Source of the DNA: Gemmatimonadota bacterium
GTDB lineage: Bacteria; Gemmatimonadota; Gemmatimonadetes; Gemmatimonadales; GWC2-71-9
DNA: 56,079 nucleotides
NCBI GenBank assembly: GCA_022566515.1
Contig: JADFIT010000006.1
Coordinates: 1 to 56,079 of the forward strand
Direction of reading: 5' to 3'
Below the pieces are notes generated by a model. It searched no databases and was not told the DNA's origin. It worked only from the letters and a program-made list of their open reading frames with translations. Below, piece after piece: positions 1-52,050 of this stretch. Both the position numbers and the translations under genes were made by a program. The stretch's first letter is position 1. Every line of letters starts with the position of its first letter.

Positions 1-59
1 CCTTAGATTGGCAGTCCTCCACGAGACACACCGCACACTTGAATCCGGAGGAGCGCTCC

Positions 60-1361
60 ATGGAATGTAGGCCTTGCGTTACACTCGCCGTTGCCGCAGC
101 GGCGATCGCCGCGCTGCAACCACTCCACGCGACAGCCCAATCCGCTGCCCAAACGACAGCGATAGCGGAACTCGCCGAGCAGGCGGCCGTGCAGCGGGCG
201 TTCCGTGCGATCGACGAATTAGAGGCCACAACGATGGCCAACCACGTGATGCTGACCGAGATCGCCGCTCCCCCGTTCATGGAAGAACGGCGCGCGGCGA
301 AGTTCGCTGAGTTACTGCGAGAAGCCGGCGCGGATTCGGTATGGATCGACGCGGAGGGAAACGTCATCGCGTTGCGCCGCGGTCAGCTGGGGCAACGAAC
401 CGTGGCAGTGGACGCCCACCTCGACACCGTGTTCCCCGAAGGTACCGATGTGTCGGTTCGCAGACGAGGCGACACCCTCCTCGCCCCGGGGATCGGTGAT
501 GACACCCGCGGCCTGGCGGTGGTGCTCACCCTGCTACAGGCGATGAACGCTGCCGAGTTGCACACCGAGGCCGATCTGTTGTTCATCGGAACCGTGGGCG
601 AGGAAGGCCTGGGAGACCTCAGAGGCATGAAGTACCTGTTCCGCGACGGAGGGCCGCGGATCGACGTCTGGATCAGTATCGACGGCGTCGACCCCAAGCG
701 CATCGTGCATGGAGGGCTCGGAAGCCACAGATACCGAGTGACCGTCAGAGGACCGGGAGGCCACTCATGGGGTGCGTTCGGGCTGGCGAACCCCCACCAC
801 GCGCTGGGCATGGCGGTTCAGAAGTTCGTCGCAGCGGCCGATCCGTTCACTTCGAGCGGCCCACGCACGTCGTACAACGTTGGGAGAATCGGTGGAGGGA
901 CATCCGTGAATTCGATTCCGTTCGAATCGTGGATGGAAGTGGACATGCGCTCGGTGAGCCCCGAGAGGTTGAACGGCGTGGATGCACTGTTCCAACGAGC
1001 GATGCGCGAAGCCCTGGAAGAAGCGAACATACTCCGTCGTCGCGGCGACTCGCTCACCATGGAGATAGAGTCGATCGGCAACCGGCCGTCCGGTGTGGTA
1101 AGCGTTGATGCATCTCTGGTCCAAGCCGCCATGGCAGCCACAACTTACTTCGACCTGGAGCCCGTGCTCACGATCTCCTCCACGAACTCGAATATACCGA
1201 TCTCCTTAGGGGTTCCGGCGATCACCATCGGTTCGGGTGGCGCTGGCGGCGACGCTCACGCGCTCAGTGAGTGGTGGGTTAACGACAACCAAGCGCTGGG
1301 CATCAAACGGGCACTGCTGATCGTGTTGGCGGAGGCGGGGCTCTCTGAGCTGGTTAATTAG
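60..1361 (+). CDS. Secreted M20-family zinc metallopeptidase
   Basis: Predicted exported di-metal aminopeptidase or carboxypeptidase of family M20 (peptidase T / CPG2 type). The first 26 or so residues form a signal peptide with a hydrophobic alanine-rich core and a likely cleavage after ATA. Metal-site motifs are in order: AHLDTVF (His120, Asp122), GIGDDTRG (about 144-151), the catalytic Glu and metal Glu in GEEGLGDLRG (about 180-189), and a C-terminal GGDAHALSEWW that supplies the last histidine. The dimerisation domain lies between. I chose the ATG at 60 because GGAGGAG sits 6-7 bases upstream; an in-frame TTG at 39 has no such site. The length of 433 residues is normal for the family. The substrate cannot be read from sequence. 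It stands alone and is followed by an AT-rich repeat. Confidence 0.9.
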   Translation: MECRPCVTLAVAAAAIAALQPLHATAQSAAQTTAIAELAEQAAVQRAFRAIDELEATTMANHVMLTEIAAPPFMEERRAAKFAELLREAGADSVWIDAEGNVIALRRGQLGQRTVAVDAHLDTVFPEGTDVSVRRRGDTLLAPGIGDDTRGLAVVLTLLQAMNAAELHTEADLLFIGTVGEEGLGDLRGMKYLFRDGGPRIDVWISIDGVDPKRIVHGGLGSHRYRVTVRGPGGHSWGAFGLANPHHALGMAVQKFVAAADPFTSSGPRTSYNVGRIGGGTSVNSIPFESWMEVDMRSVSPERLNGVDALFQRAMREALEEANILRRRGDSLTMEIESIGNRPSGVVSVDASLVQAAMAATTYFDLEPVLTISSTNSNIPISLGVPAITIGSGGAGGDAHALSEWWVNDNQALGIKRALLIVLAEAGLSELVN

Positions 1362-1370
1362 ACCAATACT

Positions 1371-1421
1371 CAATATCCAATATTGAAGATTCGATATTCA
1401 ATATTCGATACTGCGATTATC
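1371..1421. repeat. AT-rich inverted repeat, copy 1
   Basis: This is an AT-rich block in an otherwise GC-rich region, starting 10 bases after the peptidase stop. Its core is a perfect inverted repeat AATATTGAA (1379-1387), 9-base loop, TTCAATATT (1397-1405), flanked by further ATATTC/ATATCC units. Nearly the same core recurs at 4608-4634, and related sequence occurs at 55806-55913. It may act as a terminator-like hairpin or be a dispersed selfish repeat. The rest of the gap to the next gene (1422-1513) shows only a small GGCC-TTT-GGCC palindrome. Confidence 0.8.
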
Positions 1422-1513
1422 ATGACACACGTGCAATCGGCCTTTGGCCCCAAGAACCGACTGTAACTTGCCCTGCGCATCCCTCAAGGCATCCCAACCA
1501 GTGGACTCGTGAT

Positions 1514-3775
1514 GTGACGACCTCAGGCCCCCTCCACGGACGCATAGCATCCCTCCTCGCTTTCATCTTTTTCTTTTCTGGCTTTGCCAGCTTGATGTAT
1601 CAGATAGCCTGGCAACGGCTTCTGACGCTGTATTACGGCGTTGGGACGATCTCGATTACACTCATCGTGAGCGTATACATGTTCGGGCTCGGCGTGGGTG
1701 CCCTCATCGGAGGCGCTCTGGCCGAGCGAATACGCGACAAGCTGAGGCTGTACTTTGTCGTTCAGCTACTGCTCGCCGTCTTCGGGTTCGTGAGCCTCCC
1801 GTTTCTCGACTTTCTCGGTAGGCTCACGGCCGGAAGCAATTACGTCATATCCCTGTGGTACATGGGGTCATTCCTGATCTTGCCGACCACCCTGATGGGT
1901 ATGACGCTGCCGCTAGTTACCAAGATCTTCATGCGTTTCGCAAAGGATCTCCTGTCAACCGTCAGCTATTTGTACTTTCTCAACTCGATCGGTGCAGCCT
2001 GCGGCGCTTTGTTTGCAAGCTACGTGTTCATCTCATTCTTCGGGCTCCACGCAGCCGTTTACTGTGCCGCGGCGATCGACATTGTCCTGGCGGCCCTCAT
2101 CTTGCGCGTTCACTTTCTACCCATGCCCGAGGCACGCTACCAATACGCGCTTCAGCTCGTGCATGGCCACGCAGATACCGGCACGGTGCTTGGTAAGTTG
2201 GCGTACCCGGTTGTACTTATCACGGGTTTCTTGGCGATCGGATACGAAATCGTTTGGCTGCGCGTGGTTGGTGTTCTGGTCAAGGCGTCACCCTATGCTT
2301 TTTCGACGGTGTTGGCGGTTTACCTCGTTGGGATCGGCGTTGGCAGCTTCGGCGTTGCACGGCTGTGGCCGCGGCAGACCGTCGTGGGAAAGCGAAATCT
2401 CTTCTTCCTCTTGCAGTTTCTCATCGGTCTCTACGTGGCGACGACGTTCATAGGCTACTACTACCTGACGACATTCACTCCGCTCGGTGGTATCACGCGC
2501 GCCTCATTTTCGACCCTGTTGCATCCACCCTTCATCGTTCCATCGGTCGCCTCCTTGGGACAGTTTCTCAGCGACACCTTCGTCATCATTGACGTCTTCG
2601 CCTGGCCGTTGGTATTCGCGTTCGTCCCGACAGTTCTCATGGGGGCGAGCTTTCCGCTCATTGCGCACTTGTCCCAAGTAGAGGCCCACGAGGAGGGTAG
2701 GACGGTCGGTAGGGTGTATTTCTTCAATATCGCTGGCAACGTGCTAGGCGGTATTCTCACCGGATTTGTTCTCCTGCCGATCATGGGAACGGCGCCGACC
2801 CTGATCGTGTTCTCCGCTATTGGTGTGCTGTTCGGGTTGTTCGTGACGCGGATTGCGGGCAGGCAGCTAAGGATCGGATGGCGGGTTGGCGTCGCCGTCA
2901 CGTTGCTGGTCCTCATTGTAGCGCTCTTTCCCAAGGGAGATCGCCTTTATGAAACGATGCATGATTCTCCCGGAGAGGGGTTCGTCACGTTCATAGAGGA
3001 AGGCAGAGACGGAGTAGTTGTCACACAGCAAAAGCAGGACACCATATACAACTACATCAACGGCCTCGGCCACGGCGGGCGGCCGGGGTACGGATTTTAT
3101 TACGAAGCCATTGAGGGACTGAGTTTTGCACGACAGGTAGAGAACGTGTTGATCATCGGCTTTGGCACCGGATCGACCACCGAGATGATCCTCAAGATGA
3201 ATGGCGTGAGAAAGGTAACCATCGTCGAGCTGAATCCGGCGCTTCTCAGGAACCTGGAAAAGATGCCGTTGTTTAGGGAGCTACTCCACGACGACAGAGT
3301 TGAGGTGATCATCGACGATGGGAGACGGTGGTTGTTGAGGACGGACGAGAGGTTCGACCTCATCCAAATTGACGCGCTACGAGCCACCACTTCGTACAGC
3401 AACAATCTCTATTCGCGTCAGTTCTTCGAGCTCGCGGGTCGCCACTTGAACGAGGGGGGAGTGTTCATGGTATGGATGGACGAGTACCGGGTCATACCAA
3501 AGACGATTCTAGCTGCGTTTGACCACGTACGCGTCTATGATTTCTTCTGCTTGGCGTCGAATGTAGCCTTTGTGAGAAATGACGAAGTCCAAAGAGCTTT
3601 GCTGGCAGATTTCTCGCCCGAGGAGCGCCAAACGATTGCGGCCCAGGGGAGGTATCTGGGAGACGAACGCTTTATCGAGGAGGTAACGGTGGGCTACGAC
3701 ATCAACGAGGATTGGAAACCCGTGACGGAGTATTACCTCGGCCTGCGAATCGAGAACAGCTTCCGCCTGCGTTAA
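1514..3775 (+). CDS. Polytopic membrane protein fused to a spermidine-synthase-like domain
   Basis: A 753-residue two-part protein. Residues 1 to about 475 are membrane-embedded with many hydrophobic segments and repeated G-rich helices (for example GLGVGALIGG and a second half containing GIGVGSFG), as in the fused MFS/spermidine synthase family. Residues from about 485 to 700 form a Rossmann methyltransferase-like domain of the polyamine aminopropyltransferase type, with GFGTGSTTE near 548, the acidic VELNP that ends strand 2, DDGRRWL, and the DLIQID strand. Members of this family often lack proven aminopropyltransferase activity, so the substrate is unknown. The start is a GTG with no strong ribosome site. 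It faces the minus-strand prepilin gene across 28 bases. Confidence 0.8.
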   Translation: MTTSGPLHGRIASLLAFIFFFSGFASLMYQIAWQRLLTLYYGVGTISITLIVSVYMFGLGVGALIGGALAERIRDKLRLYFVVQLLLAVFGFVSLPFLDFLGRLTAGSNYVISLWYMGSFLILPTTLMGMTLPLVTKIFMRFAKDLLSTVSYLYFLNSIGAACGALFASYVFISFFGLHAAVYCAAAIDIVLAALILRVHFLPMPEARYQYALQLVHGHADTGTVLGKLAYPVVLITGFLAIGYEIVWLRVVGVLVKASPYAFSTVLAVYLVGIGVGSFGVARLWPRQTVVGKRNLFFLLQFLIGLYVATTFIGYYYLTTFTPLGGITRASFSTLLHPPFIVPSVASLGQFLSDTFVIIDVFAWPLVFAFVPTVLMGASFPLIAHLSQVEAHEEGRTVGRVYFFNIAGNVLGGILTGFVLLPIMGTAPTLIVFSAIGVLFGLFVTRIAGRQLRIGWRVGVAVTLLVLIVALFPKGDRLYETMHDSPGEGFVTFIEEGRDGVVVTQQKQDTIYNYINGLGHGGRPGYGFYYEAIEGLSFARQVENVLIIGFGTGSTTEMILKMNGVRKVTIVELNPALLRNLEKMPLFRELLHDDRVEVIIDDGRRWLLRTDERFDLIQIDALRATTSYSNNLYSRQFFELAGRHLNEGGVFMVWMDEYRVIPKTILAAFDHVRVYDFFCLASNVAFVRNDEVQRALLADFSPEERQTIAAQGRYLGDERFIEEVTVGYDINEDWKPVTEYYLGLRIENSFRLR

Positions 3776-3803
3776 CCCCTGGTGAGCAGGCGCACCGGTT
3801 TTC

Positions 3804-4295
3804 TTAAGGAACCATCCCCATGCCCATGCCCATCCCAACTCCACCACCGTCACACACCATCAAGCCTTCCGCGGTTGCGGGCGCGTAAATGGTGGCCGGT
3901 GAGCCCAGGAATAGCGCACAGCGGTCGGGGATACTCGCGTGCGTAGTACGGCCACTGAAGCCTGCCCCATCGCCGAAGAGTTCGAGTACCACACCGGGAC
4001 TGGTGTCAAAATCCAACCCAGCCATCCCCACCCCCATCCCCATCCCCATCCCCATCCCTACACCGATCGTACCGGTATAGGTAAAGTTGTCGCCATGAAA
4101 GGCCTCTTCCGCGGCGGCCAGATTACGCAAGTCAGATTTCATCTCGGCGAGGTACGCGTGCTTCTTAGCGCCGACCAGTTTGGCCGTGATCGATGCCAAG
4201 ATCCCAATGATCACAGTCACCACGATCAATTCAATGAGCGTAAAACCGCTGCGACCCACGTGGTATCTCGACCTCACTCGATAGAATAGCGTCAT
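3804..4295 (-). CDS. Type IV prepilin-like protein with Gly-Met repeat tracts
   Basis: A short prepilin of 163 residues. After a basic leader comes the prepilin-peptidase site G/FTLIE with Glu at mature position 5, then the hydrophobic helix VVTVIIGILASI. The globular part is short and has two cysteines (RCALFLG and LMVCDGG) that probably form the C-terminal disulfide loop. Two low-complexity tracts stand out: GVGMGMGMGMGVGMAG in the middle (DNA about 4021-4058 plus strand, CCCCAT hexamers) and GGGVGMGMGMGMVP at the C-terminus (DNA about 3811-3845). These come from hexanucleotide repeats, so length change would stay in frame. It probably polymerises into pili or pseudopili driven by an ATPase such as the PilB-like protein at 13914-16172. 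No other pilus genes are adjacent. Confidence 0.85.
   Translation of the reverse strand: MTLFYRVRSRYHVGRSGFTLIELIVVTVIIGILASITAKLVGAKKHAYLAEMKSDLRNLAAAEEAFHGDNFTYTGTIGVGMGMGMGMGVGMAGLDFDTSPGVVLELFGDGAGFSGRTTHASIPDRCALFLGSPATIYAPATAEGLMVCDGGGVGMGMGMGMVP
3811..4058. repeat. Two CCCCAT-type hexanucleotide tracts inside the prepilin gene
   Basis: Interrupted hexamer repeats lie at about 3811-3845 (CCATCCCCATGCCCATGCCC and following) and 4021-4058 (CCCCAT units in a row). On the coding strand they read GGGATG and encode Gly-Met. The tract at 4021-4058 also has enough G runs on the minus strand to form a G-quadruplex. Confidence 0.85.
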
Positions 4296-4590
4296 ATGAC
4301 TCCAGCGCCTAGAGTCGGCTAACCACGTCCTGACAGGACGAATAGCAGCGCATGCCGCTCTCTAGAGGTGCCGCTCATGGTTGTTGAGGTGCCCGATGCA
4401 GGCGGTGGAACGCCGGCAAGTGGCAAAATACACTACGGTGGGTACGCAAACCATGTGCCAGACGCGGTGGAGTAGCGTAAGTCATTATGAATACATAAGA
4501 TACGCTCGCACCCGCGGCGTTCAGTGTGTCTCGGCGCCGCCCCAGCCTGCAACTTTTCTTGACAATACGCGACGGTCCTTTAGAGCAAGA
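4296..4590. other. Intergenic stretch without a recognisable gene
   Basis: About 295 bases upstream of the prepilin gene and downstream of the alcohol dehydrogenase. I see a small GTCCTGACAGGAC hairpin near 4329 that could belong to the prepilin leader. A TTGACA hexamer near 4560 has no matching -10. No convincing open frame or RNA gene was found. Confidence 0.5.
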
Positions 4591-4650
4591 CTCAATATCC
4601 AATATCCAATATTGAAGATTGGATATTCAATATTCGATATTCGATATTCT
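4591..4650. repeat. AT-rich inverted repeat, copy 2
   Basis: Same family as the block at 1371-1421. The inverted core is AATATTGAA (4608-4616), 9-base loop, TTCAATATT (4626-4634), with extra CAATATC and GATATTC units on either side. It overlaps the 3' end of the alcohol dehydrogenase gene and supplies its stop codon. Confidence 0.85.
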
Positions 4651-5740
4651 TCGGGTCGATAATCGCCTTCGTGACTCGGAGCGCCGCCACGTCCTCCAGC
4701 GCCCTGCCGGCCTGCCCCAAGCCGTAACGCCCTCCGATCAACCGGGCAAAGGGGAGCCGATCGCGGTACTTCGCCAGGAGCCCCAAAGACCGCACCAGAT
4801 GGCGGAAATCGGTGCCCCATTGGCCGCGAACATCTGCGTGTTTGCGATTCACGTCGATATGGGGGTTGAAGGCAGTGGGGCCGGCATCGGTATAGTGGCC
4901 GGCGATTACGTACGTGCCGCCATCTCTGAGGAGAGAGAACCCTTCTCCGATGGCGTCGGGGTTGCCGCTGGCCTCGATGATCACGTCCGCGCCGCGGCCG
5001 TGGGTGGCCTCCGCGATCACGTCAGCCCGGTCGGCCAAGGGCCGGTCTTCCAGTGACAGCACCACGTCGGCACCGAGTTGCCGTGCCAGCTCGAGGCGCG
5101 CCTTGGGGGCTCCGATGGTGATCACCAGTCCCGCCCCCCGGAGCGCGGCGAAAGCCCCGGCCGCCAAACCCACCGGGCCCGATCCCTGCACCACCACGGT
5201 GTCGCCCATGGCGAGGTCGCTGCGCTCGACCGCCGCAAACCCCGTGAACAATCCGCAGCCGCCCCCAATCACATCGTCTGCATCGAGCCCGTCCGGAAGT
5301 TTGACGATGCGCACGCCGGGCTTGAGGTAGATCTGCTCGGCCCAGCCGCCGAGGGGGCCGTCGTGGGCGGAATATGTGATCCCGTACACCCGCCGGCTGG
5401 GACAGCGATTCGGCTGCCGCGCCACCATGCAGAAATAGCAGCTGTTACAGACTTCGTGGACGTCATAGAACGTCACGACATCTCCGGGACCGAGCTTGGC
5501 ACCGAAGGCGTCGCGATCGGTACCTCTGGCTTCGAGCACCCGGCCCACGCTCACATGACCGGGGATGATGGGATACGGCACGCCTGCCAGCCGTCCGTGG
5601 TGGAGGTGCACGTCGGTGCCGCACACCTCGCTGGCGATGGTTTCCAACAGCACCCCGCCATCCTCGAGAACCGGCTCATCAATGTCCCAGATTTCCAATG
5701 GGGCGTCTGGCTGCGTCATCACGGCGGCCCGGATCGTCAT
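4592..5740 (-). CDS. Zinc-dependent alcohol dehydrogenase (MDR family) with repeat-encoded tail
   Basis: Medium-chain dehydrogenase/reductase, probably oxidising an alcohol or polyol with NAD(P). The catalytic-zinc cysteine is in EVCGTDVHLHHG and the structural-zinc lobe has the cysteine pattern CNSCYFC...RC. The Rossmann motif GSGPVGLAAG opens the cofactor domain. The ATG at 5740 fits the family start (TIRAAV...). An upstream in-frame start at 5833 would add 31 unlike residues. The natural C-terminus should lie near VTKAIIDP. Instead the reading frame continues for about 17 residues through the AT-rich repeat before stopping, so the tail is repeat-derived and probably non-functional. It is transcribed divergently from tig. 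Confidence 0.88.
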   Translation of the reverse strand: MTIRAAVMTQPDAPLEIWDIDEPVLEDGGVLLETIASEVCGTDVHLHHGRLAGVPYPIIPGHVSVGRVLEARGTDRDAFGAKLGPGDVVTFYDVHEVCNSCYFCMVARQPNRCPSRRVYGITYSAHDGPLGGWAEQIYLKPGVRIVKLPDGLDADDVIGGGCGLFTGFAAVERSDLAMGDTVVVQGSGPVGLAAGAFAALRGAGLVITIGAPKARLELARQLGADVVLSLEDRPLADRADVIAEATHGRGADVIIEASGNPDAIGEGFSLLRDGGTYVIAGHYTDAGPTAFNPHIDVNRKHADVRGQWGTDFRHLVRSLGLLAKYRDRLPFARLIGGRYGLGQAGRALEDVAALRVTKAIIDPKNIEYRILNIQSSILDIGY

Positions 5741-5941
5741 TTGTCTCAACAGCTCCAGTCTCGAGGGGCGCCCGCAAACTACCAATCGGTGGGGCTGACG
5801 GGGAGCGGGCAAGGAGACGGAAGGACAGAGCACCCCTTCGCCTGGGCGGGGCGGACGGTAGGCAGGGTGGCGCCGAAGAGCGGGGCGGCGGACCGGATGG
5901 AGGGTACCGCCTGGAGAGGTAGGGAGGAAATGGTGGAAGTG

Positions 5942-5950
5942 TGCTAGATT
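5942..5950 (+). promoter_or_regulatory. Possible extended -10 promoter for tig
   Basis: TGCTAGATT type element (TG-N-TAGATT) 34 bases before the tig start in the 243-base divergent gap. No good -35 is visible, as is usual for extended -10 sites. Based on pattern only. Confidence 0.3.
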
Positions 5951-5983
5951 ACCTCGCTGCCAGATGACACCAGAGCAACGGAC

Positions 5984-7234
5984 ATGACCACCGATATACA
6001 GATTACCCGAACCAAGGACGAGCCAGGGGAGACCACGCTGAGAGTGGAGGCTCCCGTGGAGCGCGTGCAGGCCGCCGAGAGGAAAGCGGCTTCGCGGTAT
6101 GCGAAGCGCGTCCGGTTGCCTGGATTTCGCAAGGGGAAGGTTCCCCTCAACGTCATCCGCCGTCGGTTTGGCGATGCTATCAAGGAGGCGGTGGTACAGG
6201 AGCTATTGCAGGAGAGCTGGAAGCTGGCCCTCGAGAAGGAGGACCTGGAGCCCATAGCGGAGCCGCGGATTCGCGGTCTGAAGATAGAGGAGAATTCCCC
6301 GGTAACCTTTGAGATTTTGGTCGAGGTCAAGCCCGAAGTCAACGTGGAGAGGTTGGGGGGCTTTTCCCTGCAACGCAAAGTTGCCCCGGTCTCGGACGAG
6401 ATGGTCGGAGAGCAGCTCGAGGAGTTGCGGCGTCAAAAGGCCCGCTGGGTTCCGGTGGAGGGTGAGAAACCCCAACCCGGCCAGATGGTTCGTATCACCA
6501 TCGACACCGAGAAAGACGGTGAGGAGAAGGAGGGTCGTCCCTATGAGCTGGTGATCGGCCAAGACCAAGCACTTCCCGAGGTCGAGGACAAGATCATGCA
6601 GCTCCTTCCCGGCGAGACGACGGATACGACGATCACCTTCCCGAGCGACACTGAGGACCAGTCAAAACAGGGACACACGATCTCAGCTCGCATTACGTTG
6701 TACGAAGTGAAGGAGCAGCAGCTTCCCGAACTCGACGGCGCTTTCGCTGCCGAGGTGGGGGACTTCGATTCGGTGGATGATCTGCGGGAGGCGGTGCGCA
6801 AGGACCTGGAAGAGAACGCGAAACGGGAAGCGGACGCAGATGTTCGGCGGCAGCTGGTGGAGCAGATTGCCGCAGCCAACGACATTCCGGCTCCTCAGTC
6901 ACTGGTGAACCGGTTACTGGCGGCATATCGGGAAGCGTATCGCGTTCCGGACGACCAGGCTGACAAGTTCGCCGCCGAGTTCGTTTCCATGGCGGAGACA
7001 CAGGTTAAGCGCGATCTATTGTTGGAGCATATCGCAGAGCGCCACGACTTGAAGGCCACAGAGGAAGACATTGACGAGCGGGTGGAGAAGATTGCCACGG
7101 CGCGCGACACGGAACCTGGGAAGGTATTCGCGAGTCTTCAGAGAGAGAATCGCATCAAGGAACTCGAGCGAAGCATCACTGAGGAGAAAGTATTTGCGTA
7201 CCTTCTCGAGCAATCACCCGTTATTGAGAGTTGA
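5984..7234 (+). CDS. tig: Trigger factor, ribosome-bound chaperone
   Basis: Folding chaperone that docks at the ribosome exit tunnel and shields nascent chains. The N-terminal ribosome-binding domain (1 to about 115) has the signature GFRKGKVP near 47-54. The FKBP-type middle domain (about 150-245) contains [17 protein letters not shown], and the helical C-terminal substrate-binding arms run to residue 416. Length is a little under the 430 usual. It is first in the run tig-clpP-clpX-engB, a common bacterial order that links folding and proteolysis. The clpP start lies 8 bases after the tig stop, so the two are probably cotranscribed. Confidence 0.97.
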
Positions 7235-23033: not shown

Positions 23034-23120
23034 AAGGGGGGGAGGTGGGAGGGGAGAGGGGAGAGGGGAGAGGGGAGAGGGGAGAGGTTCCCCGCCTTTC
23101 CGCCTTTCCGCCTTTCCGCC
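23034..23120. repeat. G-rich heptamer array plus CCGCCTTT triplicate
   Basis: Five tandem GGGGAGA units lie from about 23051 to 23085, preceded by an imperfect G-rich lead. They are followed directly by three tandem CCGCCTTT octamers (about 23091-23116). The block lies in the divergent gap between glmM and the PLP-enzyme gene. The same heptamer occurs at 29721 and 51954. The plus strand has a strong G-quadruplex potential. Confidence 0.85.
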
Positions 23121-29720: not shown

Positions 29721-29802
29721 GAGAGGGGAGAGGGGAGAGGGGAGAGGGCCACCCAGCCCCACTCCTGTCATGAGGTGGTTGGGCGGGGCCCTCTCCCCTC
29801 TC
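29721..29802. repeat. G-rich inverted repeat between convergent genes
   Basis: GGGGAGA heptamers (29721-29748) end in GGCC. The arm GAGAGGGGAGAGGGCC (29735-29750) is perfectly complementary to GGCCCTCTCCCCTCTC (29787-29802), 16 base pairs around a 36-base loop that itself has further complementarity. It starts right after the antiporter stop and overlaps the stop of the convergent phosphoesterase. It may work as a bidirectional terminator. Related to the block at 51954-52050. Confidence 0.85.
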
Positions 29803-50706: not shown

Positions 50707-51954
50707 GTGCATACACCGGCCTCTGCGGCGACCGACATTCTCAGTCAAATTTCAGCGTTGCCGAGCCAAGACGTTCAATTGCCCGACGCGCTCGACCGTG
50801 TGCTTGCCGCCGATGTCGTGAGCCCGGTCAACCTGCCCCATTGGGACAACTCCGCCATGGACGGGTATGCCCTACGCTCAACCGACATTGCGGGAGATCC
50901 ACCACACGAACTCGAGATAATCGAGGAGATTCCTGCCGGGACGTTCCCCAGCAAAGAGGTGGCAGCCGGACAGGCGGCGAGAATTTTCACAGGGGCGCCG
51001 ACTCCCCGGGGGATCGACACCGTAGTTCGCCAGGAGGACACCACCCGGCTGAGCGACAAGCGTGTCCGCATCGATGACACTCGCGACGCAGGCCGCCACA
51101 TCCGCCCCCTGGGCGAAGATGTGCGAGAAGGTGAAACGGTGCTGCGCGCCGGAACCCCCCTCGGCCCGGCTCAACTCGGGATGCTGGCATCCGTCGCACA
51201 CTTCGACGTGACCGTGCATCGGAAGCCGCTCGTCGCTATTCTCGGCTCCGGCGACGAGATCGCAGATGCGGATGAGCGCGACGCGATCGTCGCCGGGCAA
51301 AAGATCGCGTCGTCCAACACGTACACCCTAGCCGCACTCATCCAGCGCGCCGGCGCCGAGACGGTGAACCTCGGCATTGCAAAGGACGACCCGGCCGACC
51401 TGCGCTCCCGTCTGCTCGAGGCCGCGCCCGCCGACCTGGTCGTGACGACGGCGGGTATCAGCGTCGGCGAGCATGATTTCCTCCATCAGGTCCTGGAGGA
51501 ACTGAATCTCGAAAAGAGATTCTGGCGTATTCGCATGCGGCCCGGCGCCCCGGTGGGCTTCGGCTTGATCGGCGACCTCGATGGCCTGCCGTGGATCGGC
51601 CTGCCGGGCAACCCCGTGAGCGCGATGGTGACGTTCGAACTGTTCGTGCGACCGGCCATTCGCAAGATGCTGGGGCACACGGCGGTGTTCAGGAGTGTCA
51701 CGCCTGTTGTCGCCGCAGAACCGATCACGCTAGGAGCACCGTTGCGCCACTTCTTGCGAGTCAAGTTGACGGGAGAGGATGGCAATCTGGTGGCGCGGCT
51801 AACAGGAGCCCAGGGGTCCGGCATCCTCAAGTCGATGGTGCACGCCCACGCTCTCCTGATCGTTCCGGAAGACAAGCCGGAAGTCCAGCCGGGGGACGTG
51901 TTGAACGCGATCGTGCTGGACGATCACCGGCACGTGGAGGAGTGTCCTTGGTAG
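50707..51954 (+). CDS. moeA: Molybdopterin molybdenumtransferase MoeA
   Basis: Inserts molybdenum (or tungsten) into adenylated molybdopterin. Motifs are NSAMDGYAL, RIFTGAPTP, VAILGSGDEI, TTAGISVGEHDF and LPGNPVSAMVTFELFVRP, ending in the beta-barrel domain IV (GSGILKSMVHAHALLIVPE). 415 residues is typical. The start is GTG. Its stop codon is directly followed by the large G-rich inverted repeat. Confidence 0.96.
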   Translation: MHTPASAATDILSQISALPSQDVQLPDALDRVLAADVVSPVNLPHWDNSAMDGYALRSTDIAGDPPHELEIIEEIPAGTFPSKEVAAGQAARIFTGAPTPRGIDTVVRQEDTTRLSDKRVRIDDTRDAGRHIRPLGEDVREGETVLRAGTPLGPAQLGMLASVAHFDVTVHRKPLVAILGSGDEIADADERDAIVAGQKIASSNTYTLAALIQRAGAETVNLGIAKDDPADLRSRLLEAAPADLVVTTAGISVGEHDFLHQVLEELNLEKRFWRIRMRPGAPVGFGLIGDLDGLPWIGLPGNPVSAMVTFELFVRPAIRKMLGHTAVFRSVTPVVAAEPITLGAPLRHFLRVKLTGEDGNLVARLTGAQGSGILKSMVHAHALLIVPEDKPEVQPGDVLNAIVLDDHRHVEECPW

Positions 51955-52050
51955 GGGAGAGGGGAGAGGGGAGAGGGGAGAGGGCCGCCCCGCGAAACCA
52001 CCCCCGGGGCGGGGGTGTGGGGCCCTCTCCCGTCTCCCCTCTCCCCTCTC
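51954..52050. repeat. Large G-rich inverted repeat between convergent genes
   Basis: Four to five GGGGAGA units (from 51954) end in GAGAGGGCC (to 51986). About 34 bases later comes GGCCCTCTCCCGTCTCCCC and further CTCTCCCC units (52021-52050). The arms pair over about 30 bases with a single mismatch. The structure starts at the moeA stop and ends at the convergent ETF-QO stop. The same design is seen at 29721-29802. It is a good candidate for a bidirectional terminator or a dispersed repeat element, with G-quadruplex potential. Confidence 0.88.

Follow-up and report, generated by a model that had tools for sequence, protein, structure and literature searches.

Type IVa pilins and GspG-like pseudopilins (Pfam PF07963) are among the closest described comparisons for the protein considered here, and it is through loops and tails that pilins help set the adhesion targets of the pilus. 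Generally, type IVa pilins carry a conserved helix breaker, Pro22, which may let part of the N-terminal helix melt in the filament (PMC5059446). A precedent for a pilin gene associated with unusual DNA is gonococcal pilE, upstream of which a G4 is known (PMC10094033). Low-complexity Gly/Met sequence at a protein terminus is found in GroEL, whose Gly-Met tail is functionally important (PMC11978752) and adopts polyproline II (PMC12571646). Our search of the literature, largely outside subscription papers, found neither Gly-Met or Met-rich pilins nor any link between SpeE and pilins.

The stretch of 56,079 nucleotides analysed here (the window) carries a gene for a prepilin-type protein of 163 residues on the minus strand (3804..4295), recognized from its ORF translation and family profiles. 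The ORF (4295-3804) begins MTLFYRVRSRYHVGRSG^FTLIELIVV, where ^ marks leader cleavage; the leader is 17 residues long and ends in RSG, and the mature protein begins with FTLIE. Since the scores for both N_methyl (PF07963; 29.7 bits, cut-off 21.2) and NCBIfam TIGR02532 (33.3 bits, cut-off 16.3) exceed their cut-offs, the class III leader proposed by the first-pass annotation can be accepted, and the cleavage/methylation motif G^F-T-x-x-E is present as well. In the alignment, Glu5 and Gly14 are kept in the N-terminal helix (FTLIELIVVTVIIG), and two conserved Cys are retained. The T2SS major pseudopilin GspG was rejected as an identity, as the score of 39.4 bits against the curated profile TIGR01710 lies below the cut-off of 88.85. 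The coding strand is fixed by homology to pilins; HPHPHP and PIPIPI, read from the antisense frames, are incidental. The gene is remote from any pilus operon of its genome (G000; 3.6 Mb, a 241-contig draft, 95% complete and the sole assembly of the species), in which PilM, PilN, PilO and a secretin, plus other pilins, are encoded elsewhere; the main pilus region, L113 (G000:C60), contains several prepilins followed by PilM, PilN, PilO and the secretin.

Two in-frame Gly-Met tracts, one mid-protein and one C-terminal, had been described in this gene, and both proved to be present, each as (GGN-ATG)4. Tract 1 (4023..4058, minus strand; residues 80-91) is (GGG ATG)4 GGG GTG GGG ATG, that is, GMGMGMGMGVGM, with four perfect GGG-ATG units at 4035-4058 and then GGG-GTG-GGG-ATG extending to 4023. 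Tract 2 (3813..3836, minus strand), GGG-ATG-GGC-ATG-GGC-ATG-GGG-ATG, lies within the C-terminal tail DGGGVGMGMGMGMVP (3807..3851, minus strand; residues 149-163), which follows the last conserved Cys. The TRF scores of the tracts are 67 and 38, respectively. At most two consecutive GGNATG units arose in 60 Markov simulations of the window, while four were observed, twice. A pattern search allowing one mismatch placed all six matches to GGNATGx3 in the genome inside the pilin gene, and runs of four GGNATG units were found in five other genomes among 298 of the phylum, none of them in a pilin. The Gly-Met-tract pilin is real and unusual. RNA structure around the tracts is unremarkable (z -1.88), and positions 1300-6100 hold no Rfam matches.

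Alignment with about 50 relatives along the mature protein places tract 1 in a 14-residue insertion between the helix/first strand and the beta-domain, a position occupied by a short variable loop in other pilins, and tract 2 in a tail beyond the second (last) conserved Cys, where relatives end after 1-2 residues, with one exception that is a different prepilin type. Both tracts are, as suspected, outside the conserved pilin core, one after the first strand and the other after the last Cys, and neither was found in about 52 related pilins searched for them. The suspicion that such Met richness is unusual for pilins also holds: 11 Met were counted in the mature protein, while the median among 54 relatives is 1 and the highest count 4. 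As a single-sequence AlphaFold model (mean pLDDT 47) is reliable for the N-terminal helix only, our inference that the tracts are surface-exposed draws on the alignment and on what is known of the pilin fold.

Convergent to the pilin gene, with the two stop codons separated by 28 bp, lies a gene (1514..3775, plus strand) for a fused MFS/spermidine-synthase-like protein (SpeE-like; hereafter SpeE). It passes the cut-off of NCBIfam NF037959 (fused MFS/spermidine synthase) with 122.2 against 40 bits; a true spermidine synthase SpeE (TIGR00417) was rejected as its identity, the score being 57.7 bits and the cut-off 249.55. The pair lies between an M20/M28 peptidase gene on the left (39..1361, plus strand) and a Zn-dependent dehydrogenase gene on the right (ADH; 4592..5833, minus strand; 82% to G001). 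In G001, which belongs to the same genus, the genes for the M20 peptidase and ADH stand side by side, with tig, clpP, clpX and engB after them, and the same series is broken in the window by SpeE and the pilin. Judged by gene order, the SpeE-pilin pair is an insertion relative to G001, and a search of the three congeners, one of which is just 72% complete, found no match to the SpeE gene.

The edges of the inserted segment coincide with AT-rich heptamer palindromes, one (1363..1412) directly after the stop codon of the M20 peptidase and a second, near-identical one (4586..4649) extending into the ADH gene at its 3' end. The last ~18 residues of ADH (4592-4651) are encoded by the latter element and form an extra tail, NIEYRILNIQSSILDIGY, absent in G001. 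These elements are dispersed, palindromic and AT-rich (GC 0.21-0.40), with units such as GAATATC and CAATATT; they occupy dozens of places in the genome (1363-1412, 4586-4649 and 55806-55912 of the window, and L148-L167); the three congeners have fewer, and a search of 17 other genomes found none. A longer form of about 100 bp has a GTGTCCACCACCACTTC-like core. Elsewhere in the window, 23037-23120, 29721-29748 and 51953-52050 hold heptamer arrays of the GGGGAGA type, perfect or nearly so, together with an 8-bp CCGCCTTT array.

The only close SpeE homologue in the genomes searched belongs to G256, a member of another family of the same class, and is 76% identical in amino acids over its full length; the DNA similarity between window and G256 ends at the SpeE gene boundaries. 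There too, a pilin gene is convergent to SpeE, 27 bp apart (L172/L173). The two pilins are sisters with support of 100/99 in a 59-sequence tree, the bootstrap of which was not fully settled, and a profile built from both scores 281 and 406 bits on its own members and, across 394 genomes of the class, at most 122 bits on any other. Defined here as a convergent MFS-SpeE gene within 30 bp of a Pro22-less pilin with a Gly/Met tail, the pair occurs among the genomes searched only in G000 and G256, and on this sampling it is rare and patchily distributed. IMG/VR holds no SpeE relative, the best plasmid matches of SpeE are below 30% identity, and a contig scan yielded only a distant Lentisphaeria pilin. 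In addition, the pilin pS of 0.81 (window against L172) is far above the 0.51 of the SpeE neighbour, a pattern that an exchange of the pilin or a higher mutation rate in it would give.

Beyond the last Cys, the G256 pilin has 31 residues and the window pilin 15. The G256 tail is DGPGVGGGGMGGGMGGGMGGGMGGGMGMGGP, and the sequences end in CDGPGVGGGGMGGGMGGGMGGGMGGGMGMGGP (G256) and CDGGGVGMGMGMGMVP (window); tract 1 is absent from the G256 orthologue. The tail repeats are written with 15 GGC, 6 GGT and 6 ATG codons in G256 and with 2 GGG, 2 GGC and 4 ATG codons in the window, so that the Gly codons vary only synonymously, and Gly and Met are kept in both orthologues. The first-pass annotation had named one unvarying tract length across related genomes as evidence that would speak against its reading; because tail unit and length differ between the two orthologues, this objection does not apply. 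Given that the G256 relative builds a similar Gly/Met tail from a different repeat, it is the Gly/Met make-up of the tail and not its length that seems to be conserved between the two members known. A pattern search of 394 genomes of the class located GGGM stretches in exported proteins, transporters and GroEL, and the G256 protein is the sole pilin among the loci read. A short ORF unrelated to pilins (L041/L197; G025:C10, about 10.2 kb) has an RRSF-type start region and a long (GM)n/GGGM end.

Pro22 is present in 52 of 53 pilins, the window pilin being the exception, and the G256 orthologue lacks it as well; in both, it was lost together with a one-residue deletion, and in this feature the window pilin departs from type IVa pilins. 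Its branch is among the longest of the pilin tree (1.18, median 0.31). The pilin core has a pN/pS of 0.42 with saturated synonymous sites, against a minimum of 0.68 in 300 neutral simulations of this one sequence pair, and SpeE has a pN/pS of 0.25. On the evidence of this single pair, the pilin core is under purifying selection, and the pN/pS values support a functional pilin.

The reading to which we give somewhat better than even credence is that of a gene for a divergent type IV pilin-like subunit, paired with SpeE and inserted at this site, with Gly/Met segments kept as flexible surface decoration. The SpeE-pilin pair has probably spread by horizontal transfer; both tracts probably stem from units of 6 or 12 bp that expanded, or were copied, in frame, and are retained since their protein composition is useful. 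They would form a flexible, mildly hydrophobic, polyproline-II-like decoration on the surface of what is probably a minor or accessory filament subunit, chemically resembling the Gly-Met tail of GroEL, and would serve neither as a metal site nor as a phase-variation switch. Several points weigh against this reading: selection on composition is judged from a small sample of two members, the repeat copies are non-independent, and the remoteness from the pilus operon, the loss of Pro22 and the long branch also fit relaxed constraint. A more elaborate version, which we regard as speculative and unlikely, would make the pair a mobile two-gene module, in which a pilin lacking Pro22 and ending in an elastomer-like Gly/Met tail is modified or supported by a dedicated membrane aminopropyl-/methyltransferase-like enzyme, so that the filament would be packed differently and have a soft surface responsive to oxidation.

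The main alternative, doubtful in our estimate yet a serious competitor, is that the tracts are neutral low-complexity noise left by replication slippage at two tolerant positions in a gene weakly constrained after transfer. The location of one tract in a loop and of the other at the very C-terminus, the restriction of the mid tract to one species and the absence of pilus genes next to the pilin would all be expected of such a gene, as would its long branch and missing Pro22. Neutral expansion is less easily reconciled with two orthologues that both have a Gly/Met tail, made from different units, with purely synonymous variation inside the tail repeats, with a core pN/pS below all neutral simulations, and with the retention of the Cys pair, Glu5 and Gly14. 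Moreover, the genome contains no other GGNATG tract and is therefore not generally prone to them.

That hexamer slippage varies pilin length between cells of one population, as the first-pass annotation had suggested, is improbable. The tracts are indeed in-frame 6-bp repeats, and the tail length does differ between orthologues (15 and 31 residues). Interruptions are, however, expected to stabilise a repeat, and each tract has only four perfect units, with GGC or GTG interruptions, which argues against hypermutability; the G256 orthologue uses a 12-bp unit instead. Binding of Cu(I)/Ag(I) or quenching of oxidants at the pilus surface by the Met-rich tracts, for which the excess of Met over the at most 4 of relatives might speak, together with Gly-Met runs in multicopper-oxidase-like proteins of related genomes (recognized by reading translations, not by family search), is quite improbable: copper genes are absent next to the pilin, the GM or GGGM spacing contains no conserved Met motif and changes between orthologues, and Gly-Met stretches in the class are common to many unrelated exported proteins and GroEL.

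Both tracts are also G3+N1-7 quadruplex motifs on the coding strand, where the 56-kb window has five in all, and the G4 of gonococcal pilE (PMC10094033) is a precedent for quadruplexes, in DNA or RNA, with a role in promoting recombination or tuning expression. The pilE G4, however, is upstream and not coding, the G256 pilin gene has no such motif, and donor copies of the tract region were not found in the genome. Likewise, a search of the 95%-complete genome for silent partial pilin copies sharing the repeats, as required for pilE-type gene conversion, found none. As quadruplex motifs are confined to the window gene, what is conserved is likely the peptide and not the DNA, and we consider the quadruplex explanation very improbable. 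An assembly artefact, in which the segment was joined through the heptamer elements or derives from contamination, is scarcely credible even for an insertion bracketed by dispersed repeats in a single, 241-contig draft assembly, since these elements are typical of the genome and short (50-71 bp), the genes on either side share the contig and are in synteny with G001, the pair is intact in the unrelated G256 assembly, and the two tracts differ in codons.

The link to a pilin provides a candidate context for the poorly understood MFS-fused spermidine-synthase-like family, and a Pro22-less lineage that keeps its Gly/Met tail while changing the unit amounts to a natural experiment on how far filament core and surface can change.

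Compared with type IVa pilins and GspG-like pseudopilins, whose mature proteins have about 120 residues, the window pilin has the same leader, FTLIE start, Glu5, Gly14 and helix, the same beta-domain with two conserved Cys and, after removal of the tracts, an equal core length. It differs by the loss of Pro22 with the one-residue deletion, by the Gly-Met insertion after the helix/first strand, and by 15 residues beyond the last Cys, where the relatives have 1-2. The G256 pilin is the nearest counterpart, sharing the convergent 76%-identical SpeE, the Pro22 loss and the Gly/Met-rich tail, as well as GF instead of GW and an (S/T)IYAPAT block; its tail of GGGM units is twice as long, however, it has no mid tract, the cores are only 50% identical, and its gene pair sits at another genomic site without heptamer elements. 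SpeE resembles NF037959 proteins (122 bits, cut-off 40) and, unlike true spermidine synthases, scores far under their cut-offs and is linked to a pilin gene. Gonococcal pilE, with its antigenic variation, is likewise a pilin gene with G4-type sequence, whereas the window gene has no silent copies and carries its motif within the coding region, where the orthologue does not conserve it. Finally, the GroEL tail, (GGM)4M, is like the window tail a low-complexity Gly/Met sequence at the extreme C-terminus, conserved in kind, and since GroEL is an unrelated protein of another compartment, the analogy is one of chemistry only.
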